Positions 5,291-32,892 of a DNA stretch of 64,000 nt are shown here, piece after piece. The stretch is from the NCBI RefSeq assembly GCF_020164555.1, contig NZ_JAIQZB010000021.1, positions 1 through 64,000 of the forward strand, read 5' to 3'. The notes under the pieces were generated by a model, which was given only the letters and a program-made list of their open reading frames with translations, had not been told where the DNA came from and did not search any database. Source of the DNA: Salegentibacter lacus (GTDB lineage Bacteria; Bacteroidota; Bacteroidia; Flavobacteriales; Flavobacteriaceae). The position numbers were made by a program, and so were the translations under genes. Numbering within the stretch: position 1 is the stretch's first letter; every line of letters begins with the position of its first letter.

Positions 5291-8200
5291 TTAAAACTTA
5301 ACTCTTACACCTGCAGTAATCGTTGTAAGAGGGGCGTATAAACGACGTCCAGAATTACCTGTTTCATCCGTGTTTGGAAGGAAACCATCTCTTGCAGTAT
5401 TCACATAAAGGTTATCTCCAGATAAATAGAGGTTCACATAGTTAATCCCGCTATCTCCAAACATTTCTTCTGGAATCGTATATCCAACTCTAACATTGTT
5501 TAATGCGATATAATCTGTGCTTGTTACAAAACGGTCAGAAGCTGAAGTACCATTTACAAATGCGTTATCTGTTAAAGCAGGAACGCTTGTCATATCTCCA
5601 GGACGTTGCCATCTGTTTAAGATGTCTGAGTGGTAATTGTTTCCAACTGCACCAAAACGGTCGCTCATTAACTCTGCATACTGCGCATCGTAAGCATGAC
5701 CTCCAAAGCTATAGATAAGCTGAGCGCCAAAAGTAAAGTTCATAAAGTTACCACCTAATCTCATACCACCTCTTACATCAGGAATCGCTGATTTATCGAT
5801 ATATTTTTCAGTAGCATTAGCATAAGTTTCTGTAACTCGTCTTTCAATATTAGCATCTGGATTATCAGTAGTAAAAAGTTTCATATTTTGAATGGCTTCT
5901 TCACCATTATCCAGAATTCCATTGGAATTAGCATCATTAAAGTATTGGTACCACTGTGGAGCACCATTCGCTGGATTAACTCCCGCATACTCTCTAGTAT
6001 AGATATCAAAAATAGATCTACCCTCACTAAAAGCAAAAGGAGAATTAGAAGTATCTAATATACGCTCTTCTCCAGTAGAAGGATCTAATGGCATTCTTGT
6101 AATCACGTTATCCAAAATCTCACCGTTCACACTTAGATCTAAATTAAAGTCTGCAGTTTGAACAAGATGACCTGTTAAATTAAATTCTAAACCTGAGTTT
6201 CTTAAATCCCCATCGTTAACTGTAATAATGGCGATACCCTGAGAAGGACCTACTCTACGTGAAAAAATCTGGTCTTCTGTATTTTTAATATAATAATCTA
6301 TGGAACCATCTAACCATTTTCCAAGTCCAAACTCAGTACCTACCTGGTACATTGTTGAAGTCTCCCAGGTTAGATCTGGATTTCCATTCCCTAACATTGA
6401 AAGAGATATCTCATTGTTTAGGTTATTAATACTAAAAGTATCATATCCAGAATAGTATCCTACCCCAGCTTCATCACCCATAATACCGTAAGAAGCCTTA
6501 AATTTAAGGAAGTTGAACAAATCGTTGTTTGCAAGGAAATCTTCGTTAGAAGCTACCCAGGCAGCACCAACAGATCCAAATGTCCCCCATTTCTCATTAA
6601 CAAAACGAGAAGATCCGTCACGACGTACCGATCCTGTAAGGAAGTAAGTATCAATGAAATTATAGTTAACCTGCCCAAAATAAGATTCTATAGACCTTCC
6701 TTCGTTAAAACCAGTAGCAGGACTTGCAGCAACAACATAGTTATTTAGTTCGTAAATATCTGAAGCTACAGCTTTGGTTTTAAATGCTGTATTATAAGAC
6801 AATTCAAAATCATTAGATTCGTGTGCAGCCAAAACTTCCAGGCTATGATCCCCAAATTGATTCTCATAACGCAATAACTGTAAAAAGTTAGTAGTTAAGG
6901 TTTCGGTATCTGACTTAAATAAAGTACCGCCATCACCTTGCGCAGAACCATAGAAAGGATTGCTTGCACTAGTATATCTATTCATCGCATACTGAGCACC
7001 AAATTTGGTTTCAAACGTAAGGTTATCAGTAATTATAAAATCTAAACCAAAACTTCCGTTCAATTCGTGTCTTTCAGTATTATTATAGTCGTAAAGCGCA
7101 GAACCAACCGGGTTCAATCCGTCAGATTGTGGTCTTGTTCTAAAATTTGAAAAGCTACCATAATCCAATTGATTACCACCAAATATAGGATCTGGCACCA
7201 ATTCTCCTTCATCATCTCTCAAATAAACCCCAAAAATAGGAGCTGTTTTGTCAGCAAATTCAAAAACGTTTTCAGATCCTACTGTTTGGCCGTTTTCTAA
7301 TTGCTCAGAATATGCATAACCAATGTTAGCGGAAAGGTCTAACCATTCCTTAACCTGAGACTTTAAATTTAAACGTGTGGTATACCGGTCATAGCCTGTA
7401 TTTAAAGCATAACCATTATCATTTAAATACCCTGCAGAAGCAAAGTAAGTAGTTTTCTCATCTCCACCACCAAAACGCACGTTGGCTTCAGATCTAATAG
7501 CCTGCTTAAACGCTGCATCAGCATAATTCTGTGGTGTATACTTTCTTGTCACACCATCTCTTACCATACGGGTATCAGGATTAATTAATTCTGAAGCTGA
7601 ATCTACATTCCACATATTATATCCAGCAGGAACATAATTAGAAGAAAACAATCTTGCGTTTGCATAAGCTACTGGATCTGCAGCTCCCGTAATATTACCT
7701 CGATTATAAATACCTTCCCAAACAAGTCCGATGTATTGTTCTGGTGAAGTAAGAACATCATATCTTGGAATTATCTGATCGTTAACACCTGTTCTAACAT
7801 CTACTTCAATGTAATCTTCTCCGGTAGAAGTACCTGCTTTTGTAGTAAGCAAAATAACACCGTTGGCACCACGAGAACCGTAAATTGCGGTTGCGGTAGC
7901 ATCTTTAAGTACGGTAGTACTCTTAATATCTGCGGGGTTAATAGAGTTAATACTTCCTGAAAAAGGAACACCGTCTACTACATAAAGCGGAGCTCGGTTT
8001 CCATTTACAGAACCAAAACCTCTAATTCTAATCGTAGAAGTCGTACCTGGCTGTCCAGAAGTATTAATTACATTAACACCTGCAACCTCACCTGCTAATG
8101 CCTGAGAAACGTTAGAAAAGTTTTTATTTTCCAAATTCTCAGTATCAATGGTAGTTGCTGTACCAGCAAAAGATTGTCTTGTAGCGGTACCGTATCCTAC

Positions 8201-17734: not shown

Positions 17735-18955
17735 CTAAAGAAAAAACTTCGCAATAAGACCTCCCGCCAGCCACAGGTAACACACAAAGGCAATATATTT
17801 CAAGCTCGTTTCCAACAACTGACTTTTAGGTGCCATTTCCTTCATATGCATTACATCTTTCCGCTTAAAAAACCCAAGATAAATTAGTACTCCAGAAATT
17901 GCTAAAAAAATCATATTCAGCCAAAAAGTATAATCAATCTTAAAGTGTTCTGCATTAGTGATTTTTACGGATGAAGGATCGGGTAATAAATTGAATAAAT
18001 TAAACCCATAATGCAGTAATAAGGACGTACCTATAAGCGCGGTAAAAAGGAGGAAAAGTATAAAAAGCGACATCTTCCATCCGTAATATTTTGCATTAAT
18101 TCTTAATACTGGAAAAACTACCAAATCACTAAAAATAAAAGCCATTACTCCGGCAAAACTTACTCCTTTCCCAAACAAAAGTGCTGCTAAAGGAATATTC
18201 CCCATAGAACCTATAAAGGTTAAAAAAGCGGCAATTGGGCCTACTATGATATGCTCAAGAATGGTAAAAAAGCCAAAATCGGTATTTCCATCACCGGTGT
18301 TTATAAATAAAGTTTGAAAGAAAGAATCTGGAACAAAAGCGGCAACAACACCGGCAACTGTAAAACCTAAAGTCACATCTTTCCAAACCATTTTCCATTC
18401 CATCGCGTATTGTTTGGAAACTTTAGCCCAGCTGGTTTCAGACTTTATTTTTTTCTTCCAGGATTTTTCAGAATCTTCATCATCTTCATCTTTTTCGTCA
18501 AGACGCTCTCGTGCCTTTTTAATCAATTTATGCGGATTGATAAGCCTAATAAGTATCCAGCTGATGAGAATAAGCAATATTCCGCCTATATATTCACCTA
18601 CCACAAATTGCCAGCCTAAAAAGATTGCTATTAAAATACCCAGTTCTATTACCAGGTTGGTGGAAGCAAGTAAAAAAGCAATAGAAGAAGAGAAACTGGC
18701 GCCTTTTTTAAATAAACTTTTTGTGGAAGCTAAAGCAGAAAAACTACAGGAACTACTAATAAAACCAAAGAAAGTTCCCAGCAAAAGACTTTTAGATTCG
18801 TCTTTTCCCATAGTTCTTTCCATGCGCTTTTCGGTCACAAAAATCTGGATACAACTACTTATCACATATCCAAGAATAAAGGCCCATAAAGCCATCCAAA
18901 AAAAACCGGCGCTGGTATACGCCGCTTCTCCCCACTTACTTAAAAAATCCTGCAT
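17735..18955 (-). CDS. Permease of the UPF0718/ArsP family
   Basis: A 406-residue membrane protein with two repeated halves. Each half has about four helices, split by a charged cytoplasmic loop near 150-185 (RERLDEKDEDDEDSEKSWKKK). The family motif SSCSFSALASTKSLF is present in the first half, with GSMGNIPLAALLFGKG as its counterpart in the second. Family members move metals, organoarsenicals or are untested. The gene follows copA by 27 bases at the end of the copper operon, so a role in metal handling is likely, though not shown by the sequence. Confidence 0.8.
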   Translation of the reverse strand: MQDFLSKWGEAAYTSAGFFWMALWAFILGYVISSCIQIFVTEKRMERTMGKDESKSLLLGTFFGFISSSCSFSALASTKSLFKKGASFSSSIAFLLASTNLVIELGILIAIFLGWQFVVGEYIGGILLILISWILIRLINPHKLIKKARERLDEKDEDDEDSEKSWKKKIKSETSWAKVSKQYAMEWKMVWKDVTLGFTVAGVVAAFVPDSFFQTLFINTGDGNTDFGFFTILEHIIVGPIAAFLTFIGSMGNIPLAALLFGKGVSFAGVMAFIFSDLVVFPVLRINAKYYGWKMSLFILFLLFTALIGTSLLLHYGFNLFNLLPDPSSVKITNAEHFKIDYTFWLNMIFLAISGVLIYLGFFKRKDVMHMKEMAPKSQLLETSLKYIAFVCYLWLAGGLIAKFFL

Positions 18956-18982: not shown

Positions 18983-21679
18983 TTACTGTAATTTGGTATT
19001 TTTCAATCTCAAAGCATTTGCAATCACTGAAACCGAACTAAAACTCATCGCTAAAGCAGCGATCATTGGTGATAATAAAAGTCCGAAAACCGGGTATAAA
19101 ACTCCGGCAGCAATCGGCACTCCAAGAGTATTATAAATTAGGGCAAAGAAGAGGTTTTGCTTAATATTTCGCATCACTTTCTTACTTAGCATCTTTGCCT
19201 TTTTCACTGCTTTTAGATCTCCTTTTACCAGGGTTATTTCGGCGCTTTCTATCGCGACATCAGTTCCGGTTCCCATAGCGATACCAATATCTGCCTGTGC
19301 CAGTGCAGGGGCATCGTTAATTCCATCGCCGGCCATCGCGACTTTTTTGCCCTCCTGCTGAAGTTTTTTTACTTCATTTTGTTTGTCTTCCGGAAGCATT
19401 CCCGCTTTAAATCCGGTTAAACCCAGTTCTTCGGCAACCGATTTTGCGGTTTTCTCATTATCGCCGGTAAACATATAAACCTCAACGCCATCGTCCATTA
19501 AAGATTTTAAGGCCTCTCTACTCGTTTTTTTAATAGGATCGGTAATCGTAAAATATCCTTCTATTTTTCCTTCTACAGAAACAAAGGATACGGTTTTGCC
19601 TTTTTCCTGTTCAGCAGTTACTTTTTTAGTAATTTCTGAAGAAATTTCAACATTTTCAGCTTGCATTAGCTTGTCGTTCCCAATGGCAACTTTTTTATTG
19701 TCTACCATTCCGGTCACTCCTTTCCCAGTAACCGAATTAAAATCTGAAGCTTCTATATATTTCAGCTCTTTTTCCTTTGCAAAATCAACCGTGGCTTTTG
19801 CCAGTGGGTGTTCACTCTGTGAATTTACCGAAGCCATAAGTTTTATAATTTCGTCTTTATTTTCTTCTGAAATCACTTCAACTTTTTCCACTTTGGGTTT
19901 GCCCTCGGTAATGGTGCCGGTTTTATCGATTATTAAAGTATCAATATCATCCATTTGCTCCAAAGCACGGGCGTTTTTAATAAGTACCCCGTTTTGTGCA
20001 CCTTTTCCAACACCTACCATAACCGACATTGGTGTAGCCAAACCTAGCGCACAAGGGCAGGCAATAATTAATACCGCAATTGCATTTACAAGCGCATATA
20101 CATATTGTGGTTCAGGCCCATAAATGGCCCATACAATATAAGTGATTACCGCAACAATTACCACAACGGGAACGAAATAAGCTGAAATTCTATCGGCTAA
20201 TTTCTGAATAGGCGCCTGAGACCTGCTGGCATCATTCACCATCTTTATAATTTGAGAAAGCAAGGTCTCCTCCCCTACTTTTTCGGCTTTCATGGTAAAG
20301 CTTCGGTTTCCGTTAATGGTTCCTGAACTTACTTTATCGCCTTCGGCCTTATCAACCGGAATAGGTTCTCCGGTAATCATAGACTCGTCTATACTGGAGT
20401 TTCCCTTTTCAATAACTCCGTCTACGGGAATCTTATCTCCCGGTTTCACCCTTAGAATATCTCCTTTTTCAATTTCGTCTATAGAAACTTCCTTTTCTTC
20501 GCCATCAACTACTTTTATCGCTTTGTTTGGAGCTAGTTTCAGCAATTCCTTTATAGCCGAATTTGTCTTACTATGTGCCCGGGCTTCTAAGACCTGACCA
20601 AGTAGAACAAGCGTGAGAATTACCGTTGCAGCTTCAAAATAAACGTGCACGGTGCCCATTTCAGTCTTAAACTGCGGCGGAAAGAAATCGGGAAACAACA
20701 TACCAAAAACACTGAAAAGCCAGGCCACACCAGCACCAATGCCAATAAGGGTAAACATATTGAGATTCCAGGTTTTTATAGATCGCCAGGCGCGCTCAAA
20801 AAACATCCAGGTAGCGTAAAATACCACGGGAATTGAAAGCCCAAACTGCGCCCAGTTCCAGTATTTCATTTCTAAGACATCATACAGAGGATTGTTCGGA
20901 ATCATCTCAGACATTGCGATAATAAAAATAGGTAAGGTAAACGCAACCGCGATTTTAAACTTTTTTAGCAGCTTTTTATATGATTTGCTTTCAGACGATT
21001 CTTCGGGTTCTTTTGGCACCAGGTCCATTCCGCACTTTGGGCAGGAACCAGGACCATCCTGCTCCACTTCAGGATGCATTGGGCAGGTGTACGTTGTAGC
21101 TTGAGGTTTTAGACTGGCTTCTTCTACCAAATCCATTCCGCAAACCGGGCAATCTCCGGGTTTATCATAAGTTTTGTCTCCTTCGCAATGCATAGGGCAA
21201 TAATAAACCCCAGTGCCACTTCCTTTAGTTTTTTGCTTTTCTGGTTTCGGTTTCTTTCCAGACTGGTGAATTTGGTAGTTATCACCATCATCTTTTAAGG
21301 CTTGCTGTAATTTCTCTAATGAAACATTTTCCTTGGCAACAATTCTAGCTTCTTCCTTTTCGAGATTTACCTCTGCAGATTTTACACCCTCAACTTTATT
21401 CAAAATTTCTTCAACGTGGCGCCTACAACCCATACAGGTCATTCCACTCACAGGATATGTTTGAACGTTTTCGTCTTCTGGATGAATTTGGTAGTTGCTA
21501 TCTTTTAGTGCTTTCTGAAATTCTTCAATTTCAATATGTTTTTCCATCTCGATTTCGGCGGAGGATTTTTCGAGATCTACCTGGGCATTCGTTACCCCAT
21601 CCACATTTTTTAAAGTATTTTCAACGTGGGCCCTGCAACCCATACAGATCATTCCAGAAATTTGATAGCTGTGTTTCAT
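18983..21679 (-). CDS. copA: Copper-translocating P-type ATPase CopA
   Basis: An 898-residue P1B-type ATPase that exports Cu(I) from the cytoplasm. It has two HMA domains (Cys12/Cys15 and Cys82/Cys85, both CMGC) and two short heavy-metal-binding modules (YYCPMHCEG...CPVCGMDL and YTCPMHPEV...CPKCGMDL). The pump core has the CPC ion path (near 541-543), [21 protein letters not shown] (Asp near 585), a nucleotide-binding HP motif (SEHPLAKA) and [16 protein letters not shown]. The upstream ATG at 21748 is rejected because that extension translates a dispersed DNA repeat. The double HMA plus double metal-module N-terminus is long for the family. Confidence 0.95.
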
Positions 21680-21723
21680 AGATTTTATTGGAGAGAAAAG
21701 GCTGTTTGAACCAATTTTACCCA

Positions 21724-21795
21724 CGTCATGCTGAATTTGTTTCAGCATCTAAATTGAAAGAAATTAGGCCCTGAAACCAGTTCAGGGTGACGGCC
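21724..21795. repeat. Two copies of a GTCA-CTGAA-TTCAG intergenic palindrome
   Basis: The first copy (21724-21750) pairs ATGCTGAA with TTCAGCAT. The second, on the other strand (21769-21793), pairs CCCTGAA with TTCAGGG. A third copy lies at 57358-57380. The shared consensus is near GTCAnSCTGAAYTTGTTTCAG. This looks like a dispersed REP-like element and lies just upstream of copA. Confidence 0.65.
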
Positions 21796-21833: not shown

Positions 21834-22154
21834 TTAGGCTAAATATGCTTCGCAAGCTTTTGCACACTCACGGCAGGCTTTGGCGCAATCCTGACAGTGT
21901 TGGTGATCGTGCTGGCCGCATTCGTCGGCACAGGCATTACAAACTTCGATACAATACTTTACGAGTCCGTCTACATTTTTATAACCGGTAACCAATACCT
22001 GGTTAAGCGTGCTACAAACCTCTGCACAAACCCTATCGGTTCTAATGCAGTCTTTCATCATTTTCACATTGTCTTCATCAAGACATGCATCAGCACAATA
22101 ATTGCAGTGGTTAATGCAATTCCCTAAGGTGCTTAGCAATTCCTCATTCCTCAT
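21834..22154 (-). CDS. Four-helix-bundle copper-binding protein (Csp/DUF326)
   Basis: A 106-residue protein with 16 cysteines, arranged as CxxxC and CxxC pairs along helices (NCINHCNYCADAC, YCIEVCNACADEC, HCQDCAKACRECAKAC). This matches the copper storage protein family, whose bundle holds many Cu(I) ions on inward-facing cysteines. There is no signal peptide, so it is probably a cytosolic (Csp3-like) store. It has its own promoter at 22180-22187 and lies between copA and the regulator. Confidence 0.92.
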   Translation of the reverse strand: MRNEELLSTLGNCINHCNYCADACLDEDNVKMMKDCIRTDRVCAEVCSTLNQVLVTGYKNVDGLVKYCIEVCNACADECGQHDHQHCQDCAKACRECAKACEAYLA

Positions 22155-22179: not shown

Positions 22180-22187
22180 CAAAGTTA
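22180..22187 (-). promoter_or_regulatory. -7 promoter box of the copper-storage protein gene
   Basis: Minus-strand TAACTTTG matches TAnnTTTG exactly and predicts a leader of about 20 bases. A -33 TTG is not clear. The stretch from 22188 to 22365 shows nothing else certain. Confidence 0.5.
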
Positions 22188-22365
22188 AGCACTATAAACC
22201 GTAATGAGTTTTAAAATTATGGTAAGAAGTTATAAGAAAATTGAAAAATATGAGGCCAGAAAATTCCGTTTACGGACTGGAAACTCAAAAGATATATGAT
22301 GTTGAAACAATCCCAAATCCCCGGGATCACAACGTTTTCAATATAAATTTTCAGAACTTGAAAGA

Positions 22366-22932
22366 CTAAATATCGTCCAGTGGCTTTCGTTCTAAATGTC
22401 GCAGTTTATATTGCGACGGATTTAATCCAGCTTCTTTTTTGAAGAAAGTAGAAAGATAAGCGGCACTGCCAAAACCCATTTTATCGGCAATTTCTGAAAT
22501 ATTCAATTCATCATATTCCAGTAATTCTTTGATACGTTCTGCCTTTATCTTATTCTGAAAACTTTGAATACTTTGCCCTTCGGCTTTAGTGAAGATGGTG
22601 GTAAGATGGCTATAATCGTAATGCAGTTCTTCACTTAGAACCTGAGAAAGCTTTTTGTTTTCAAAATCTTTTCGCTCGTAAACCCATTCAATAATCAAGG
22701 ATTTAATATCGTTAACAATTTTATCAGTTCTTTCAGACACGATTTCAAATCCGCTGTCATCTAGCTCTTCCTTTAAAAGCTGTAATTGAGTTTTAGAAAG
22801 TTCTTCTTTAAACTCGATCCTGCCTAAACTTATGTGTTCATATTTGAGGTTTTGTTGCTCTAAAGTATTTCTAACGCTCATCAGGCAACGATCGCAAACC
22901 ATGTTTTTTATATGCAGAATATTATTTTTCAA
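22366..22932 (-). CDS. AraC-type regulator fused to an HMA-like metal domain
   Basis: A 188-residue protein of two parts. Residues 1-65 have the pattern of an HMA domain, with MVCDRC (Cys13, Cys16) after the first strand and a closing DSGFEIV. Residues of about 80-185 form two helix-turn-helix motifs of the AraC family (LNISEIADKMGFGSAAYLS, FFKKEAGLNPSQYK). There is no classical sugar-binding cupin domain. Its place between the copper-storage gene and the efflux genes suggests that it senses Cu(I) with the CxxC pair and controls the island. That function is inference; the domains are visible. Confidence 0.82.
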   Translation of the reverse strand: MKNNILHIKNMVCDRCLMSVRNTLEQQNLKYEHISLGRIEFKEELSKTQLQLLKEELDDSGFEIVSERTDKIVNDIKSLIIEWVYERKDFENKKLSQVLSEELHYDYSHLTTIFTKAEGQSIQSFQNKIKAERIKELLEYDELNISEIADKMGFGSAAYLSTFFKKEAGLNPSQYKLRHLERKPLDDI

Positions 22933-22952: not shown

Positions 22953-22978
22953 CCTACAGGGTTTTAAAACCCTGTAGG
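22953..22978. repeat. Perfect 26-bp palindrome between regulator and DUF3347 gene
   Basis: CCTACAGGGTTTT is followed at once by its exact reverse complement, with no loop. On the minus strand TTTT follows. It lies 20 bases 5' of the regulator start and 11 bases from the stop of the DUF3347 gene. It could be a transcription stop for the efflux operon, a regulator-binding site or a dispersed palindrome. Confidence 0.6.
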
Positions 22979-22989
22979 AATATATTTAA

Positions 22990-23559
22990 TTATTGAATAG
23001 TAGCTTCTACCCTACCGCATTTCAGCATTTTATCGCCATAATACGGGTTAAAAATATCTTTGGAATTGGAAAACCAGTAGTCACCCTTTCCTTCAAAAGC
23101 CATTGGACAATATTGCTTATAAATCTCACCCGATTCTAAAGCGTCTTGCAAAACAGATTCCATGGCTGCGGTAAGTTTAGAGAATTCTTCTCTTTGCATA
23201 TTAACATCATCACTTTCTGAAATTCGCTTAGCAACCGAAGTAATTTCTTCATTTTCACCGGCTTTTTTAGCGAGTTCAGCTGCTTTATTACTTGCAGCTT
23301 CAGCATCGGTATTTACAAAGGCGTCCTTTATTTCTACATATAAACTATAGAGTTCAGCGGTAGTTTCATCTTTAAATTCTGCCCGTAATTCTTCGCCTTT
23401 ATAGGTCTCCATTTTAGCTTGATCCTCAGACTGGTGCATTTCATTTTGCATAGGTTCTGCCGGTTCATCCTTTTTTTCTTCGGCATCGCGGCAAGAGGTC
23501 ATAGATAGCGATCCCACTACCAGGCTAAGCATCATCACGTTTTTAAGCTTCTTTTTCAT
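22990..23559 (-). CDS. DUF3347 domain lipoprotein
   Basis: A 189-residue lipoprotein with lipobox SLSMTSC and a polar Met/Glu linker (PMQNEMHQSEDQ). The C-terminal DUF3347 domain has the conserved IYKQYCPMAFEGKGDYWFSN and IFNPYYGDKMLKCG, with a Cys and Met pair at each end that could bind copper. The same domain closes the CusB protein two genes upstream. An upstream ATG at 23586 is rejected because the signal peptide begins at MKKKLKN. A periplasmic copper buffer or chaperone role is inferred from context. Confidence 0.8.
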   Translation of the reverse strand: MKKKLKNVMMLSLVVGSLSMTSCRDAEEKKDEPAEPMQNEMHQSEDQAKMETYKGEELRAEFKDETTAELYSLYVEIKDAFVNTDAEAASNKAAELAKKAGENEEITSVAKRISESDDVNMQREEFSKLTAAMESVLQDALESGEIYKQYCPMAFEGKGDYWFSNSKDIFNPYYGDKMLKCGRVEATIQ

Positions 23560-23598
23560 CGTTTCTGTTTTTAATTTAATTTGCATTTATAATTATTC

Positions 23599-24306
23599 TT
23601 ATTTAAATCGTTTTTGAATTTTTCTTATAGAAGGTGAGGAAATATACCAAAGTACAAAACCACTTAAAACGGTAATTAATCCCATTAGCGAAAAAATACG
23701 CAGTACGAGATTATTAAAATCATCCCTGCCTTCATAATCCATTGTGTGAGTCATCCATCGAAAATCGAACCAGCGCCAGTCACGGTGTCGCACTGACCTG
23801 AATGCGGCATCCTGCACCGATATATACGCTTTCAGGTCGGCAGGTTCCTTATAGGAAATCACATAGGCCGGTAAAGCACCGCCTCGATATTCGTGATGAT
23901 CTCCGGTTTCATTGATTAGTTTAATCCCTGCTACCTGTAGATCTTCCCGCATGTGCTTTTTAGCAATTTTCAGGGCTTCTTCCCGGCTAATTTCTTGCCT
24001 TTTCTCTCCCGTTTTTGGATTAACTAAGCTTTGTCCGTTAATTAAATAAAAAGCTTCACCGCCAATATCTTTAAGTTCTAATGAACTTACCGGGATGTCA
24101 GACAATATTGCTCCCGGACCTTGAAGATTGGAAAAAGAAGGATTTTCAACAACCTCCTTTTTAAAATGATCCCCATGGATCTCATCAAGATCAGTCCAGC
24201 TAAAATACATCCCACTAATGGTCCACATAATGAACTGAATTCCTATAAAAAGTCCCAGGTATCTATGGGCCTGTCTTAATTTTCGAGCTGTTTTACGTTT
24301 AACCAC
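23599..24306 (-). CDS. PepSY domain membrane protein
   Basis: A 235-residue inner-membrane protein. One helix near 13-36 (YLGLFIGIQFIMWTISGMYF) opens it, a periplasmic region with a PepSY-like domain (SREEALKIAKKHMRE) follows, and a second helix near 205-227 closes it with a short basic tail. It resembles PepSY-associated TM proteins, some of which act in metal or flavin-linked redox. It lies between the DUF3347 gene and cusB in the same run. A link to copper reduction or delivery is inference. Confidence 0.75.
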   Translation of the reverse strand: MVKRKTARKLRQAHRYLGLFIGIQFIMWTISGMYFSWTDLDEIHGDHFKKEVVENPSFSNLQGPGAILSDIPVSSLELKDIGGEAFYLINGQSLVNPKTGEKRQEISREEALKIAKKHMREDLQVAGIKLINETGDHHEYRGGALPAYVISYKEPADLKAYISVQDAAFRSVRHRDWRWFDFRWMTHTMDYEGRDDFNNLVLRIFSLMGLITVLSGFVLWYISSPSIRKIQKRFK

Positions 24307-24386: not shown

Positions 24387-26108
24387 TTATTCTTTAATTA
24401 CATCGGTAACCTCCCCGCAATTAAGCATCGCACTACCGTAATAGGGATTCCTAATTTCTTCAGAAAGGCTTAACCAATCTGCACCTTTATCGTTATTTGC
24501 CATAGGGCAATGCTGAATATAAATTTGCTCATTAAAAGGCTTGAAACTTTTTGCCATCCTGATCATTTCTGCGGAAAGATCAATAAAACCGGTTCTTAAA
24601 GCTGAAATATCTTCCGAAGCTTTTAAAGCAGGTAATTCCGACTGAAGCCTATTTTTATAATTTTCCATAGCATCTGCGGCTGAATTCGAGATAACCGAAT
24701 TATCCACCGCCTCAATTGCTTTTTCTAATCCGATTAGTTGCTTTTTCGCGCCTTCGAAATCATCTTCTACAAGGGTGTTTTTTAAAGCTAAATAGGAATT
24801 AAAAACTTCTTGAAGTTCCGTTTTTTCTGCTTCAGATAATTTTATTTCACTCAAATTGCTTTCCCCCTCTTCCGGCGGATTCATCATACTGGGTCTTCCG
24901 GCCAACTGCACTGCAGCATCTATCGTAAATGTTCCGTTTACCACAATTTCCTCACCTTCATTTAAACCTTCTTCAATTACATAAGAATCCCCCAGGGAAG
25001 CTCCTAAAACCACTTCCCGATACTTAAACCCGGCACCACTTTCAACATCTTCCTTTACATACACCACAGAACGTTTTCCCGTCCATAAAACAGCTGATTG
25101 GGGGATTACAATTTTCTCATTTTCCACATTTAGGCTGTTTTCTATGATTCCCGTAGCAAACATTCCCGGTTTTATACGCCTATCCTCATTATCTATTTCT
25201 ACTCTCGCTGTGGCAACCCGCGTATTACTATTTAATAATGGATCTACGAAATTAACCTCACCTTCAAAAGTTTCACCGGGAAGCGATTTAATAGTGTATT
25301 CTATTTTGCTGCCTTCTTTAATCCATGACATATTGCTCTCGTAAACATCAAAAAGCACCCAAAGTTTATCCAGGTTTGCGATTTCGTAAATAGGCATTCC
25401 CCGTTCCAGGTAATCGCCCTGCTCAGCCATTAAATCGGTCACTACCCCTCCAACATCGGCGGTAATAGGAAAACGATCTATAGTCTCGCCTCTGCTTAGC
25501 ATTTTATTAATTTGATTCTCGCCAATTTTCCAGTTTCTCAGCTTTTGTTTTGCGGCTTCAAAAAGTTCCGGCTGGCTTTCCCTTATCTCGGCTGCCTGTA
25601 ATAATTCTTCCTGTGCAGTTACCAATTCCGGTGAATAAACGCTGGCCAAAACCTGTCCTCGATTTACTTTTTCACCAGTAAAATTAACACTTAATTGCTC
25701 AATTCTCCCGGGAATATGAGTAGACTGTGTGTAAGTGTTCCGCTCGTCTACCTCAACTTTTCCGTTAAGTCGAATTTCTTTCGAAGCATCATTTGTACCA
25801 ACAATCAGGGTTTCAACATTTGCAAGTTTAAGTGCGTTTTCACTCATCACAAACATATCTGAATCCAATTCGTTTTCATTCTCAGAAACAGGAATGAGAT
25901 CCATTCCACAAATTGGGCAATCGCCCGGTTCGTTTTGTCTTACTGAAGGATGCATAGAACAGGTCCAGATTTGATCTTCGCTCATTTCAGAATGATCATG
26001 CTCTTCAGCTTCTTCAGCATCATTTCCTCCTCCAAAAAACAAGTAGCCTAACAACACGCCGAGAATAAGAATTCCGGCCGCTTTCCAAATATAATTAGTT
26101 CGTTTCAT
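24387..26108 (-). CDS. cusB: CusB-like efflux RND periplasmic adaptor with extra metal domains
   Basis: A 573-residue membrane-fusion protein of a tripartite metal exporter. It has an N-terminal anchor helix (10-25), a His/Asp-rich linker (EEHDHSEMSED) and a heavy-metal-binding module (WTCSMHPSV...CPICGMDL, Cys50/Cys64/Cys67). The barrel-sandwich and hairpin core follows (SVNFTGEKVNRGQVLASVYSP). A C-terminal DUF3347 domain (about 430-573, HCPMANNDKGADWLSLS, NPYYGSAMLNCG) is beyond the standard CusB length of about 400. Its end overlaps nothing downstream, while its start overlaps the TolC-like gene by 14 bases. Confidence 0.9.
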   Translation of the reverse strand: MKRTNYIWKAAGILILGVLLGYLFFGGGNDAEEAEEHDHSEMSEDQIWTCSMHPSVRQNEPGDCPICGMDLIPVSENENELDSDMFVMSENALKLANVETLIVGTNDASKEIRLNGKVEVDERNTYTQSTHIPGRIEQLSVNFTGEKVNRGQVLASVYSPELVTAQEELLQAAEIRESQPELFEAAKQKLRNWKIGENQINKMLSRGETIDRFPITADVGGVVTDLMAEQGDYLERGMPIYEIANLDKLWVLFDVYESNMSWIKEGSKIEYTIKSLPGETFEGEVNFVDPLLNSNTRVATARVEIDNEDRRIKPGMFATGIIENSLNVENEKIVIPQSAVLWTGKRSVVYVKEDVESGAGFKYREVVLGASLGDSYVIEEGLNEGEEIVVNGTFTIDAAVQLAGRPSMMNPPEEGESNLSEIKLSEAEKTELQEVFNSYLALKNTLVEDDFEGAKKQLIGLEKAIEAVDNSVISNSAADAMENYKNRLQSELPALKASEDISALRTGFIDLSAEMIRMAKSFKPFNEQIYIQHCPMANNDKGADWLSLSEEIRNPYYGSAMLNCGEVTDVIKE

Positions 26109-27363
26109 CGTAGTTTTCAGTTTTAGCTGATAAATAATCCATTTTTGCCTGAGCCGTAAATCCGGCTTTCAAAGCTTCTATTTGCTGAGTTTTCAGCATT
26201 AAAACATCCTGGTTCATTCGAAGTACTTCTTCAAAATCACCATCGTTATTACTAAAAGCCGAAACCAAAAGTCTATTTACCTGGCCAGAACTTTCTATTT
26301 GCCTTTCATAAAGTTTTAGCAGCTTATCGGCCTTGTTTAAATTGTAAACAGTTTGCTCAAATTCACTTTGCAACTGATTTCTTCGAGCTTCTTTATTTTG
26401 AATTGCGGCTTCCTGCATTAGTTCGGCTTCTTTTTCTGCAGCTTTATATTTTTTTCTGAAAATTGGCAAACTCACAGAAAACATGGGCATTATTGCATCC
26501 TGCCCATTCATAGGTGGATTCGCATCTGTCCGCTTTGAAATAACCGAGTAATCCACTCCAATCCCAAAATTAGGTAAACCTGATTTTTGAGCTGTTTCTG
26601 CGCGACTTTCGTATGCCTCCCGCTCCCTATCGAATTTGGTAAGTTCAGGATGCATCTTAAAAGCTTCTTCCGCATTAACAATTTCAGCCTGTATTTCAGG
26701 ATTAAAAATCAAAGTATCCTGAATAGAAACTTCGGCTTCCCGCTCTCTATTCAATAATAAATTAAACTGCTTTTTTAAACTTTCTAATTGTTCTTCTTCC
26801 AGTTCAATTTCGGTTAAAGCTTCATCCCGCTTGATATCCACTCGCACCACATTCACCATTTTTGAACTTCCGCTTCTAAATTTACTTAGGGAAAGCTCAC
26901 GATAGGAATCCAGAATATCAAGGTTTTTCTCTTTTAAAGCAATAGTCTTCTCAATGGCGAAAAGCTCAGCATAGGCTTTCTTTATTTGAAAAAACAAATC
27001 AGCTCGCATTGCTAAATACTCCTGAAATCTTGCTTCTGCCAGTAAATCGGCTGCTTCTTTTTTCGTTCTTAAAGTTCCAAACCAGGGAAACATTTGCATC
27101 AGGCTAAACCTGGCTTCCTGGGCACCCAACCTGGTTTCTATCATTCTACCAAATGCGCTTACCGTAAGCGTGGGATCTGGTAAAGAAGAAACTTGTGGAG
27201 ATTGCTGCAGTGCAGCCTCAAACTGCGTATAAGCCGATTGCAGCTTCGGGTTATTTTCTGCAGCTATTTGGAGATAATCTTCCAACTCCTGGGCGATCCC
27301 TACTGCTCCCCAAAGCGGAATTAGAAGCAGGCTCATAATTATTTTTTTTCTGTCTATTTTCAT
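26095..27363 (-). CDS. TolC family outer-membrane channel of the metal exporter (CusC-like)
   Basis: A 422-residue protein with signal peptide (ending GAVGIAQ) and the long paired helices of TolC proteins (LEDYLQIAAENNPKLQSAYT, repeat-like second half). It would form the outer duct for CusA and CusB. It is encoded between them, 28 bases after cusA and overlapping cusB by 14 bases. No lipobox is seen, unlike enterobacterial CusC. The assignment rests on fold pattern and operon position. Confidence 0.88.
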   Translation of the reverse strand: MKIDRKKIIMSLLLIPLWGAVGIAQELEDYLQIAAENNPKLQSAYTQFEAALQQSPQVSSLPDPTLTVSAFGRMIETRLGAQEARFSLMQMFPWFGTLRTKKEAADLLAEARFQEYLAMRADLFFQIKKAYAELFAIEKTIALKEKNLDILDSYRELSLSKFRSGSSKMVNVVRVDIKRDEALTEIELEEEQLESLKKQFNLLLNREREAEVSIQDTLIFNPEIQAEIVNAEEAFKMHPELTKFDREREAYESRAETAQKSGLPNFGIGVDYSVISKRTDANPPMNGQDAIMPMFSVSLPIFRKKYKAAEKEAELMQEAAIQNKEARRNQLQSEFEQTVYNLNKADKLLKLYERQIESSGQVNRLLVSAFSNNDGDFEEVLRMNQDVLMLKTQQIEALKAGFTAQAKMDYLSAKTENYDETN

Positions 27364-27391: not shown

Positions 27392-30300
27392 CTAAGCCTG
27401 AATTGTTGTTGGTTCTTCTCCATTTTCGTCTGTGGAATTAGAAGAAACACTCTCCCTCCAAATAGCCTGTAAAACCGGCACCACAAAAATCGTCATAATC
27501 TGGATCACCATTCCTCCTACAATAGGGATAGCCATGGGCACCATAATATCAGAACCTTTTCCGGTTGAAGTAAGTACCGGGAAAAGGGCAATTATCGTTA
27601 CCGCCGTGGTCATCATTGCGGGACGAACCCTTTTTAGACCGGCTTCCATTACCGCCTCACGAACTTCTGAAACTGTTTTTGGATTTTTGCGTTCAAAAAC
27701 CTGGTGAATATAAGTTCCCATTAAAACGCCATCATCTGTAGCAATCCCAAACAAAGCGATAAAACCAACCCAAACCGCCACACTCAAGTTAATCTCGTGC
27801 ATTTGGAATAGGTTGCGCATATTCGTACCGAACATATCAAAATCCATAAACCACCCCTGCCCGTAAAGCCAAATCATAATAAAGCCGCCGGCAAAGGCCA
27901 CAAACACCCCAGAGAAGTGAATTGTTGATGCAATAATGCTCTTAAACTGAAAATAGAGTAACAGGAAAATGATAAGCAAACAAATAGGAATTAAGATGGC
28001 CAAACGTTTTACAGCTCGCACCTGGTTTTCATAATTTCCGGAGAATTTGTAACTGATCCCCTGGGGCACTTTCAGTTCGCCGGCATCAATTTTATCCTGA
28101 ATATGCTGCTGTGCATCATTTACCACATTTACTTCTGCATAACCGTCACGTTTATCGAAGAGCACGTACCCGGTTAAAAAAGTTTCTTCACTTTTTATCA
28201 TTTGCGGCCCACGTTCATACTTAAGCTCAGCGAGTTCTCCTAACGGAATTTGAGCTCCATCAGAAGTCGGTATCAAAATGTTCTTAATACTTTCTGGATC
28301 ATCTCTTAATTCGCGGGGATATCTCACTCTAACCGGAAACCGCTCTCTGCCTTCTACCGTAGAGGTAATTTCCATTCCGCCAATTGCGATTTCAATAGTT
28401 TGCTGCACATCTTCAATGCTAAGTCCGTAGCGGGCAATCGCATTTCGATCTATATCAATTTCCAGGTAAGGTTTTCCAACAACGCGATCGGCAAAAACTG
28501 CTTCAGATTTAACCGAAGGCACTTCTTTTAACAATTCTTCCAGTTCCATCCCAAAATCCTGAATGGTTCTTAGATCTGGTCCGTAAACTTTTATTCCCAT
28601 TGGCGCCCGCATCCCGGTTTGTAACATCACCAAACGGGTTTCTATAGGTTGTAATTTTGGTGCGGAAGTTACTCCGGGAAGTTTGGTGCGTTTGGTAATT
28701 TCATTCCAAATATCATCGGGACTGTTAATATGCTCCCGCCAGTTTCGGTAGAACCTTCCATCTTCATCTTCTACTAAATTTGCTGCGGTAACATCTCGCT
28801 GAATCCCTTCAGAATTGGTTAAAGTATCCCCGGATTTCAGAATAAATCGGTTTTGATCATCAACCTTGAAACGTTGCATTGAACCGTCTTCAGCATGAAT
28901 ATATTCCGATTTATAATTAATAATATTTTCAAACATAGATATTGGCGCAGGGTCTAAAGCGGTTTCAGCCCTACCTAATTTACCAACGGCAACCTCTACT
29001 TCAGGAATACTGGTTACCGCCATATCCAATTGCTTCAGGGTTTTGGTAGTTTCCTCCATCCCTGCATGTGGCATGGTGGTTGGCATCAATAAAAAGCTAC
29101 CTTCGCTAAGTGAAGGCATAAATTCTTTGCCTACACCGGGAAAAGTATGTGCCATCCCACTCCAAACCTGGGTTGTTCTCACATTCCAGCCTACTTTATC
29201 AAATCCATTGGCTACAAATCCGAATAATTTTGGAAAACCAAACCAAATCATCGCTCCAAAAAAGATAGTGATTATTGGCAGACTTAGGAATTTCCCCTTA
29301 TTGGTTAAACACCAATTTAAGATGGGTTCGTAAAATTTCACCACCATCATTAATATCACCAAAGTGATACTAAGCAACAGGATTACAAAGATATAATTGG
29401 CCAAAGCCGATTTCTGGAACCCAAGTGGCATCCACTCTTCAGCAAGGAAAAATATGGTAACTGCCAGAATTAAACCCGGAATAACCAAATTTGTATATTT
29501 CCCGAAAAACTGTGGATTCCTGTCTTCAACAATTTTTACAATTCCGATTAGCGTTAATGCTAATGGCAACCAAAAACTAAAAATAATGGCCAAAGCGATT
29601 CCTGAAACGATTAAAACAATATTCCAGATTCGTTGGGTCCTCCTTTTATTAACTTTAATGTTGAAAAAGAAATACGACAGCATTGGCAATACAAAAACAC
29701 CAATAAGAAAAGCGGCGACCAGCGCAAATGTTTTGGTAAAAGCCAGGGGACGGAATAATTTACCCTCAGCATTTTCCATAAAGAAAACCGGGATAAAACT
29801 CACAATCGTGGTGGCTAGTGCTGTGGTTACAGCGGGAGCCACTTCAGCGGTTGCTTTGTAAATTATTCCTGCCAGTTTATTGCCACTCACATTTTTGTTT
29901 TCAGGCATTTCGAGCCATCGAATTGTGTTTTCAACAAAAACAATCCCAACATCTACCATAACTCCAATGGCAATTGCAATTCCTGAAAGCGCCACCACAT
30001 TAGCATCCACGCCAAGATAGCGCATCGCGATAAAGGTCATAAGTACCGCAACAGGTAATAAACTGGAAATTAAAATAGAAGCACGCAGGTTTAAAACCAA
30101 TACAATAATTACAATAATACTGATGAGTACCTCGTGAGATAGTGCCCTCTCCAGCGTGTTTATGGTTTCATTAATCAGTTGCGTTCTATCGTAGAATGGG
30201 ACTATGGTTAGTTGACTTTCGGTACCATCAGCAAGGGTTTTAGATGGTAATCCCGTGGATATTTCCTGAATTTTATCTTTAGTATTTTGAATAACCGCCA

Positions 30301-31240
30301 GCGGATTTGAACCATAGCGAGCTACAACCACACCTCCAACAACCTCAGCACCACCTTTATCCAAAACACCACGGCGTTCAGCAGGCCCCAAACTTACCCG
30401 ACCAAGATCTTTAATAAGAACAGGTGTGTTATCATTTTCGGCAACAACGGTATTTTCAATATCTTCAATCGATTCAATATACCCGAGTCCACGAACAAGG
30501 TATTCTACCTTATTCACTTCTAAAGTTTTCGCACCGGCATCACGATTAGAATTCTTTACCGCCATCATTACCTGGTTGATACCAATTCCGTAAGCTTTGA
30601 GGGCATCTGGATTTACATCGATTTGATATTCCTGCACAAATCCGCCGATAGAAGCTACTTCAGAAACTCCTTTAGCCCCGCTTAGGCCAAGCTTTACATA
30701 ATAATCCTGGACTTTGCGCAATTCGTGAAGGTCCCAACCACCGGTAACATTTCCGTCTTTATCGCGTCCCTCTAAAGTGTACCAAAAAACCTGACCCAGG
30801 CCGGTAGCGTCTGGTCCTAAAGTAGGTTGAGCATCATCGGGTAACAAGCCGGCAGGAAGCGAATTCAATTTCTCTAAAACCCTGCTTCTGGACCAGTAAA
30901 ATTCTACATCTTCTTCAAAAATGATGTAAATACTGGAAAAACCGAACATAGAAGAACTACGAATAGATTTCACCCCCGGAATTCCCAAAAGCGAACTGGT
31001 TAGCGGATAAGTGATTTGATCTTCTATATCCTGTGGGGAACGCCCGGGCCAATCGGTGAAAACAATTTGCTGATTTTCTCCAATATCGGGAATAGCATCT
31101 ACCGGAACAGGATCACTTGGTAAAAACCCGGTGTCCCAATCAAAAGGCGCAGTTACCAGTCCCCAACCGATTAGAGAGACCAAAAGCAAAATGGAAACCA
31201 GTCGGTTATAAAGAAAATATTTTATAATCTTGTTGAACAT
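27392..31240 (-). CDS. cusA: CusA/CzcA family heavy-metal efflux RND pump
   Basis: A 1282-residue inner-membrane proton-driven pump. The N-terminus shows VDAIPDIGENQQIVFTDWPG and GIPGVKSIRSSSMFGFSSIY. The proton-relay helix region (VALSGIAIAIGVMVDVGIVF, Asp) and the Cus-type LMPTTMPHAGMEET are present, and the sequence ends with a second RND repeat (FGIATDDGVLMG). Cus pumps are Cu(I)/Ag(I) exporters; Czc pumps carry Zn, Co and Cd. The Met-rich loop and copper context favour copper. Residues of about 535-635 are an extra block of hydrophobic helices between repeats, which makes the protein some 230 residues longer than enterobacterial CusA. Confidence 0.93.
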   Translation of the reverse strand: MFNKIIKYFLYNRLVSILLLVSLIGWGLVTAPFDWDTGFLPSDPVPVDAIPDIGENQQIVFTDWPGRSPQDIEDQITYPLTSSLLGIPGVKSIRSSSMFGFSSIYIIFEEDVEFYWSRSRVLEKLNSLPAGLLPDDAQPTLGPDATGLGQVFWYTLEGRDKDGNVTGGWDLHELRKVQDYYVKLGLSGAKGVSEVASIGGFVQEYQIDVNPDALKAYGIGINQVMMAVKNSNRDAGAKTLEVNKVEYLVRGLGYIESIEDIENTVVAENDNTPVLIKDLGRVSLGPAERRGVLDKGGAEVVGGVVVARYGSNPLAVIQNTKDKIQEISTGLPSKTLADGTESQLTIVPFYDRTQLINETINTLERALSHEVLISIIVIIVLVLNLRASILISSLLPVAVLMTFIAMRYLGVDANVVALSGIAIAIGVMVDVGIVFVENTIRWLEMPENKNVSGNKLAGIIYKATAEVAPAVTTALATTIVSFIPVFFMENAEGKLFRPLAFTKTFALVAAFLIGVFVLPMLSYFFFNIKVNKRRTQRIWNIVLIVSGIALAIIFSFWLPLALTLIGIVKIVEDRNPQFFGKYTNLVIPGLILAVTIFFLAEEWMPLGFQKSALANYIFVILLLSITLVILMMVVKFYEPILNWCLTNKGKFLSLPIITIFFGAMIWFGFPKLFGFVANGFDKVGWNVRTTQVWSGMAHTFPGVGKEFMPSLSEGSFLLMPTTMPHAGMEETTKTLKQLDMAVTSIPEVEVAVGKLGRAETALDPAPISMFENIINYKSEYIHAEDGSMQRFKVDDQNRFILKSGDTLTNSEGIQRDVTAANLVEDEDGRFYRNWREHINSPDDIWNEITKRTKLPGVTSAPKLQPIETRLVMLQTGMRAPMGIKVYGPDLRTIQDFGMELEELLKEVPSVKSEAVFADRVVGKPYLEIDIDRNAIARYGLSIEDVQQTIEIAIGGMEITSTVEGRERFPVRVRYPRELRDDPESIKNILIPTSDGAQIPLGELAELKYERGPQMIKSEETFLTGYVLFDKRDGYAEVNVVNDAQQHIQDKIDAGELKVPQGISYKFSGNYENQVRAVKRLAILIPICLLIIFLLLYFQFKSIIASTIHFSGVFVAFAGGFIMIWLYGQGWFMDFDMFGTNMRNLFQMHEINLSVAVWVGFIALFGIATDDGVLMGTYIHQVFERKNPKTVSEVREAVMEAGLKRVRPAMMTTAVTIIALFPVLTSTGKGSDIMVPMAIPIVGGMVIQIMTIFVVPVLQAIWRESVSSNSTDENGEEPTTIQA

Positions 31241-31906: not shown

Positions 31907-32350
31907 TTATGGGTTTTCCCGTTTTTTCAATCGGTAATAGTAAAAAGCAGGAAGTAAAATGAGAATAAATATGGGGTGAATTAAAAATCGACGAACATAA
32001 AACAATCCCATCACATTTTCCGAATTCAGATTAAAATAAAGCACGCTAAAAGCGGCAATACTAATTCCAAAAAGCAAAGTAAAAAGCAGTGCGGCAAACT
32101 TCACAATGTTTTTATCACGAAAAGCTACAAAAAGGATTAACAGCGAAATTAGGGTGTTAAGCCAGTAGCGTAAACTTATATTTAGTAATAGTTTTGAGAA
32201 GATAATTTCAGGAACTTCCATTGCTAAATGCCCGCCATAACGATAGAAATCGATTAAAGGATCGTAAAAAAGCTGATGTTCAAATAGTCTCACCAAAACC
32301 AGCAAAACAACTAAAACCCCAATACCTAAAAGTCTTAATAATTGTTTCAT
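31907..32350 (-). CDS. Exosortase F system-associated membrane protein
   Basis: A 147-residue protein with about four membrane helices and a basic C-terminus (YRLKKRENP). It matches the small family found directly after XrtF in Flavobacteriia, with the conserved-looking YDPLIDFY near residue 30. Its function is unknown; it probably helps the exosortase in protein sorting. It overlaps xrtF by 4 bases and so is translationally coupled to it. Confidence 0.85.
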   Translation of the reverse strand: MKQLLRLLGIGVLVVLLVLVRLFEHQLFYDPLIDFYRYGGHLAMEVPEIIFSKLLLNISLRYWLNTLISLLILFVAFRDKNIVKFAALLFTLLFGISIAAFSVLYFNLNSENVMGLFYVRRFLIHPIFILILLPAFYYYRLKKRENP

Positions 32351-32892
32351 AGTTTTTGTTTTCGGCTGTAAATACGTACCCAGATCACCCAGAGTATAAA
32401 TACGGTGCCGTAGATAATTAATGGAAAAATGATACTGTGAAGGAAGTCGGTATATTGAGGGTATTCATAAATCCCCATCGCGAGAATAGCAATTCTAATA
32501 ATATTCATCACATAAATAATCACGGCACCCGCCAGTAGGTAAAGTAACGTGAGTTTTAACCTCCCGAAGAAAGAAAGTACAAAAGATGTAAATAAAATTA
32601 TAATACTAATCGCATTACATCCTTCTACAATCCTGGCCAAATAAACTTCATTAACCATAAGCTTCATAGAAAGTTCTGACTGGTGCGGTAAAATTTGAGC
32701 GCTGTACCCAAAACTATTTATTAAGGCTTCACTTTGTTTTGCTACGAGGTGTGTGAAATAATCAGGGAAATAAACCGGCGACCTAAAAAACTCTAAATAG
32801 AGATTATAGATTAGAGTTAAAACCAGGTAGCTTCCCAAAAACGTAAAGATGAAACGAAGTACCGATTTATATTTAACGAATAACTTAAGCAA
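32347..32892 (-). CDS. xrtF: Exosortase family protein XrtF
   Basis: A 181-residue membrane peptidase/transpeptidase of the exosortase superfamily, which cleaves C-terminal sorting signals and attaches proteins to the envelope. Several helices and the catalytic triad positions are visible: Cys92 in VEGCNAIS, Arg133 in NIIRIAIL and His152 in DFLHSIIFP. Length is short, as expected for the XrtF branch. Together with the associated protein it forms a two-gene unit. No protein with an obvious matching C-terminal sorting tag was recognised in this window. Confidence 0.92.
   Translation of the reverse strand: MLKLFVKYKSVLRFIFTFLGSYLVLTLIYNLYLEFFRSPVYFPDYFTHLVAKQSEALINSFGYSAQILPHQSELSMKLMVNEVYLARIVEGCNAISIIILFTSFVLSFFGRLKLTLLYLLAGAVIIYVMNIIRIAILAMGIYEYPQYTDFLHSIIFPLIIYGTVFILWVIWVRIYSRKQKL

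Follow-up and report, generated by a model that had tools for sequence, protein, structure and literature searches.

The window analysed here, 64,000 nucleotides of Salegentibacter lacus (contig NZ_JAIQZB010000021.1), contains a cluster of genes for copper export, all on one strand (Table 1). Read from 31840 down to 17735, the genes that could be assigned encode an HYC_CC_PP protein, CusA, an outer-membrane protein, CusB, a PepSY-TM protein, a DUF3347 protein, a regulator that joins an HMA domain to an AraC-type DNA-binding domain (HMA-AraC), a Csp-like protein, CopA and a permease. The initial annotation placed the regulator gene within a copper island. Its location in a copper-export cluster is borne out by the neighbouring csp, copA and cus-type genes, and copA and csp adjoin HMA-AraC in 12 of the 13 congener loci fetched. 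The clustering of copper genes with the regulator thus stands, but 'island' is a loose term for it, as nothing indicates that the cluster is mobile. A perfect palindrome lies between the DUF3347 and HMA-AraC genes and has stem counterparts with altered sequence in several congeners. Most likely it terminates transcription of the operon that precedes HMA-AraC. On the same strand, genes for exosortase XrtF and an associated membrane protein (window 31907-32892) precede the cus genes.

Table 1. Features of the copper-gene cluster and of the HMA-AraC gene in the window, with selected features of loci in relatives (positions within those loci)
Feature	Position	Strand	Basis or remark
Permease (ArsP_1; distant similarity to SO_0444 Cu/Zn efflux, under the cut-off of that model)	17735..18955	-	profile search
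CopA-type Cu(I) P1B ATPase, two HMA domains	18983..21748	-	profile search
Four-helix-bundle cysteine-rich protein (Csp1-like, DUF326; under Csp1 model cut-off)	21834..22154	-	profile search
-7-like box TAACTTTG	22180..22187	-	fits TAnnTTTG
Candidate operator TTCTTATAACTTCTTACCATAATTTTAAAA, 30 bp	22209..22238	-	footprint over window and 12 congeners
HMA-AraC fusion regulator	22366..22932	-	188 aa, TTG start
AraC-type DNA-binding domain, residues 99-176, two helix-turn-helices	22405..22638	-	Pfam HTH_18; fold match to AraC-family domains
HMA domain, residues 1-66 (beta-alpha-beta-beta-alpha-beta)	22735..22932	-	matches Cu HMA domains by profile and by fold
Codons C13-D-R-C16 of MVCDRC, predicted metal site	22885..22896	-	sole two cysteines of protein
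Perfect 26-bp palindrome between DUF3347 gene and HMA-AraC gene	22953..22978	.	RNA fold -18.1 kcal/mol, z -3.9
DUF3347 protein, probable lipoprotein	22990..23586	-	profile search
PepSY-TM protein	23599..24306	-	profile search
CusB-like adaptor with HMBD and DUF3347 domains	24387..26108	-	profile search
Outer-membrane efflux protein	26095..27363	-	profile search
CusA/CzcA family RND pump	27392..31240	-	profile match over cut-off
SO_0444 transporters directly downstream of HMA-AraC in relatives	L135 6674-7936; L140 6615-7874		
HMA-AraC members with lost CxxC cysteine(s), no copper neighbours	L141 5995-6555; L148 5992-6552; L197 5995-6567		KYMVSLRC; FDINTLCRK

The HMA-AraC gene was read from the open reading frame and translation of the window. 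Among 13 congeners the start codon is TTG in nine, ATG in three and ATG one codon later in one. Because the congeners keep the position of the start codon, the assigned start and the short first strand of the protein are likely right. Pfam HTH_18 matched the C-terminal part with an E-value of 1.3e-15 and was found in all 57 aligned family members. When the AlphaFold2 model of the whole protein was searched with Foldseek, AraC-family domains ranked first. Thus, the fusion of an HMA domain to an AraC-type double helix-turn-helix, as described in the initial annotation, was recovered by profile search, structure prediction and Foldseek alike. A conserved C-terminal tail, RKPLD (window 22366-22389), follows the second helix-turn-helix outside the HTH_18 match; in 111 sequences R182 is kept in 100, L185 in 86 and D186 in 101.

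We analyzed the N-terminal domain by profile comparison and by fold. A Pfam HMA search with the window protein alone reported no match at E ≤ 1, and the NCBIfam CopZ model aligned with residues 4-64 at an E-value of 4.2e-4, below the model cut-off. At E ≤ 0.1, Pfam HMA matched 17 of the 57 aligned members, the lowest value being 5.6e-6. A profile of the N-terminal domain, built from 44 sequences, was run against PDB sequences. HMA-domain proteins by name, mostly copper proteins, account for 42 of the 45 chains listed, the remaining three having E > 0.6. Matches included CopZ (E 1.7e-5), the copper ATPase chain 1p6t (3.7e-6) and ATP7B (4.3e-16 as the sum of six domains, the best of which alone gave 0.007). 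In a profile-to-sequence comparison, the E-value for the first HMA domain of the adjoining CopA was 5e-4, with a probability of only 32%. The assignment of residues 1-66 as an HMA domain is firm, since the profiles with relatives match copper HMA chains.

The AlphaFold2 model of the isolated 66-residue domain (pLDDT 89.1) has the order of strands and helices given in Table 1. In Foldseek its top match was CopZ (2qif; E 1.5e-3, TM 0.73); MerP, ZntA and ZiaA were also among the matches, and none had an E-value below 0.001. In the model, the N-terminal part thus folds as an HMA domain, with CopZ as the nearest structure. By sequence and predicted fold, residues 1-66 are a copper-chaperone-type HMA domain, for which copper is the predicted metal and Cu(I) the putative ligand.

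The two cysteines of the protein are located within MVCDRC, after strand 1. Across the 57 aligned members K9, M11, V12, R15, C16 and G37 are invariant, and C13 is nearly so. Of 111 distinct sequences, all have C16 and 109 have C13; this set is partly biased toward the motif, as one search peptide contained MVCD. Among 43 copies in the 40 fetched loci of relatives, found by whole-protein search, 40 carry M-x-C-x-x-C. The exceptions are one copy with V for M, in which both cysteines are kept, and two with S for C13.

Homologues with the same fusion, for which the initial annotation had proposed to search, form a family present in 142 of 296 sampled Bacteroidota genomes and 81 of 140 genera (cut E 1e-30). 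Plasmid copies also occur in Bacteroidota. On a Pontibacter plasmid the fusion, annotated merely as 'helix-turn-helix domain-containing protein', lies upstream of a copper ATPase, and on an Aureibacter plasmid it precedes an SO_0444 transporter. A match on a Lacticaseibacillus plasmid was rejected as a family member: it is a longer AraC protein (~362 aa by annotated span), matched from query residue 11, and was taken as unrelated at the N-terminus.

To survey the usual cytosolic copper sensors, we used the models for CsoR (PF02583), CueR (TIGR02044) and CopY (TIGR02698). In 60 genomes, that of S. lacus included, CsoR was found in five, and neither CueR nor CopY scored over the cut-off in any. 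In the S. lacus genome none of the three sensors reaches its curated cut-off; the genome contains MerR and BlaI relatives that score below the CueR and CopY cut-offs, and OmpR-type relatives and CusR-like response regulators, likewise below cut-off. For the window protein itself none of the three models was among the matches listed, and it has HMA and HTH_18 instead, in agreement with the view that it differs from MerR, CsoR and CopY systems. The rarity of these sensors in the 60 genomes leaves a gap that HMA-AraC could fill. A mutual exclusion of CsoR and HMA-AraC was considered and rejected: both occur together in nine of the 296 genomes (HMA-AraC in 142, CsoR in 85; Fisher p 1e-17), but the effect is driven by 64 CsoR-positive genomes of one family (f31), without which p is 0.10. 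At E 1e-30 HMA-AraC is absent from these 64 genomes, as though the one sensor had replaced the other there.

We next compared the neighbourhood of 40 fetched family loci with that of 40 control loci, which contain other AraC genes and were drawn from the same relatives. The 40 family loci were picked from at least ~64 full-length matches, those omitted being mostly extra copies in sampled genomes. One locus (L197), in which the HMA domain is degenerate and the CxxC is lost, was counted as family and not as control, giving 41 family and 39 plain AraC loci; for 31 of the 39 controls the same genome also supplied a family locus, and for the other eight it did not. CopA, CusA, CusB, DUF3347, Csp and the window permease served as copper markers (E ≤ 1e-10, within 6 kb). 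A marker was found near 35 of the 41 fusion loci as compared to one of the 39 plain AraC loci (p 2.5e-15). Two fusion loci with no marker from this list (L135 and L140) have directly downstream an SO_0444 Cu/Zn transporter, over the cut-off and with a CopZ-like C-terminal domain. When SO_0444 was added as a marker in both sets, the counts were 37/41 and 1/39 (Fisher p 4e-17). Note that in the sole control with a marker (L159), kept as a control match, the CopA is the one beside the fusion gene of another locus (L152); both loci share a contig, and this CopA is ~6 kb away from the control gene. A strict CopA match was present near 27 of the 40 fetched family loci.

The four fusion loci left without a marker are L141 and L148 (C13 to S), L197 and L147; the last has an intact CxxC (KYMVCLRC) and is close in sequence to L141 and L148. 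Among the 41 fetched loci, copper neighbours accompany 37 of the 38 members with CxxC and none of the three without (p 4e-4), a post hoc comparison in which L141 and L148 are alike, leaving perhaps two independent events. The variants that lost the CxxC may sense something else. A sigma-70 gene precedes the fusion gene of L141, and the gene after that of L197 resembles a receiver domain by eye.

In a second set of 80 named loci, which overlaps with the first in nine Salegentibacter contigs that were also among those fetched, any copper marker was found in 65 and a strict CopA match in 50. The other 15 loci have no copper marker, SO_0444 included, and some of them are on contigs of ~4-8 kb. Several have full flanks and an intact CxxC with no copper-export gene, among them L058 (Prevotella denticola), L062, L063, L069, L092 and L117. 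As several marker-free named loci keep the CxxC, the copper linkage is not strict; these copies may have distant targets or serve another role. Close pairs of HMA-AraC genes were also seen, divergent in L059, L061 and L084 (around 5310-6560) and in the same direction in L055 and L072 (6000-7250) and in L043, L045, L048 and L051. In L055, L059, L072 and L084, the second copy shows [IV]KGMVCxRC in its plain form.

The gap between HMA-AraC and csp was aligned for 13 sequences, namely the window and 12 congeners; the locus of the thirteenth congener (L128) lacks csp at this place and was not part of the footprint. The gap varies in length and sequence except for the last ~100 bases. Within these, TTCTTATAACTTCTTACCATAATTTTAAAA is nearly fixed, with one base differing in one of the 13 sequences over its last 20 bases. 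In the window, 21 bases separate it from TAACTTTG, which fits TAnnTTTG, a sequence we take to be the -7 box consensus of Bacteroidota promoters. At constant spacing, four Gillisia loci also have the TTCTTATAACTTCTTACCATAATTTTAAAA core ahead of csp, as do two congeners at a second csp locus. With two TTCTTA half-sites in tandem at a distance of 10 bases, the block would be a suitable target for an AraC-type protein. It is a candidate binding site of HMA-AraC, although a different factor might be bound instead.

The window contains the 30-bp site once, and the genome contains a single exact match to its 16-base core; no copy of the site is present ahead of the cus operon or of the HMA-AraC gene itself. 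A regulon search of the S. lacus genome with the 16-base core and up to three mismatches was discarded. It gave 142 forward and 150 reverse matches, compared to 137 and 135 for a reversed-pattern control, and because looser core matches are about as frequent as those of the reversed pattern, there is no regulon support for the 30-bp site, and of all these matches the single exact one alone carries information. A matrix from Salegentibacter and Gillisia, run over 146 upstream regions, gave strong matches confined to Gillisia. The looser core TYTTANCNNAATNNTANAA was found in 0 of 38 control loci, seven of the 71 named loci that do not belong to the genus and two of 27 other fetched loci, the pattern having been derived from the same data on which it was scored and missing most family loci outside Salegentibacter and Gillisia. 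It fits a few Mucilaginibacter-type loci and is only suggestive of an operator in distant genera.

Direct sensing of Cu(I) by HMA-AraC, as predicted from domain homology, the conserved CxxC and the copper-gene linkage, is well supported. The best reading, and in our view a likely one, is that the protein is a one-component Cu(I)-responsive sensor that activates csp-copA. Cu(I) in excess in the cytosol, drawn from the buffer or passed on by HMA-to-HMA exchange with a chaperone or with the HMA domains of CopA, would be bound by C13 and C16 of the N-terminal domain. In the copper-loaded form, the AraC domain would activate the csp-copA promoter via the candidate operator, which lies just upstream of the TAnnTTTG promoter, the position of class II AraC-type activators. 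As a result, copper would be stored by Csp and exported by CopA. The cus operon may be controlled by HMA-AraC as well.

The sign of control is not fixed by anything in the sequence, and with the same architecture the apo-protein could block the csp-copA promoter until released by Cu(I); for CsoR and CopY, metal-released repression is the rule. We consider this arrangement unlikely, as the conserved block is located upstream of the -7-like box and not over it, and AraC-type proteins are mostly activators. A different question is whether copper is the signal. The HMA domain might respond to another soft metal (Zn, Cd, Hg or Ag), or its thiols to redox conditions, with the copper linkage reflecting mixed metal resistance. 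HMA domains are also found in zinc and mercury proteins, in line with the presence of MerP, ZntA and ZiaA in the Foldseek list, and SO_0444 Cu/Zn transporters adjoin some fusion copies. However, the top matches, by profile as well as by fold, are Cu(I) HMA domains of the M-x-C-x-x-C form, and strict CopA matches lie near most of the fetched family loci, making a signal other than copper quite improbable.

Given that HMA domains are classically chaperones and that CopA of the same genome offers two HMA partners, the domain could also serve in copper delivery or docking instead of sensing, with the AraC part constitutive or responding to another signal. The CxxC-intact copies with no nearby copper gene would fit such a role. 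The loss of copper neighbours together with the CxxC in the comparison described above, post hoc and based on few independent events, argues against it, and we regard a delivery or docking function as highly improbable.

In conclusion, activation of csp-copA by a Cu(I)-responsive HMA-AraC is the reading we prefer. The HMA and AraC parts are each already known domains; their fusion is probably a little-studied kind of copper sensor. Searches of open-licence full-text papers, a part of what is published, yielded no recognisable description of an HMA-AraC copper regulator, which is weak evidence of novelty. Whether much of Bacteroidota relies on these proteins for its main cytosolic Cu(I) sensing, in place of CueR, CsoR and CopY, is in our judgement evenly balanced. 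The proteins would then form a separate, chaperone-derived sensor class, maybe loaded by HMA-to-HMA exchange and reading the copper pool of CopA. If true, a copper sensor would have been made by reuse of a chaperone fold.

With the HMA domains of CopZ, Atx1 and CopA (PF00403) the window domain shares the predicted fold, the M-x-C-x-x-C metal loop and the length, whereas the fusion family is distinguished by K-N-M-V-C-x-R-C, the invariant R15 and G37 and a DNA-binding partner domain. The C-terminal double helix-turn-helix is common to AraC/XylS regulators (MarA, SoxS and the AraC DNA-binding domains; HTH_18). These usually have a cupin-like or other small-molecule domain at the N-terminus, where HMA-AraC has the HMA domain, and HMA-AraC differs from them also in its conserved RKPLD tail. 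CueR, CsoR and CopY would have their role in common with HMA-AraC, namely cytosolic Cu(I) sensing next to copA, but their sensor and DNA-binding folds are different. A similar layout is that of the archaeal CopR/CopT-type regulators, in which a TRASH metal domain is joined to a helix-turn-helix, with both the metal domain and the DNA-binding family differing from those of HMA-AraC.
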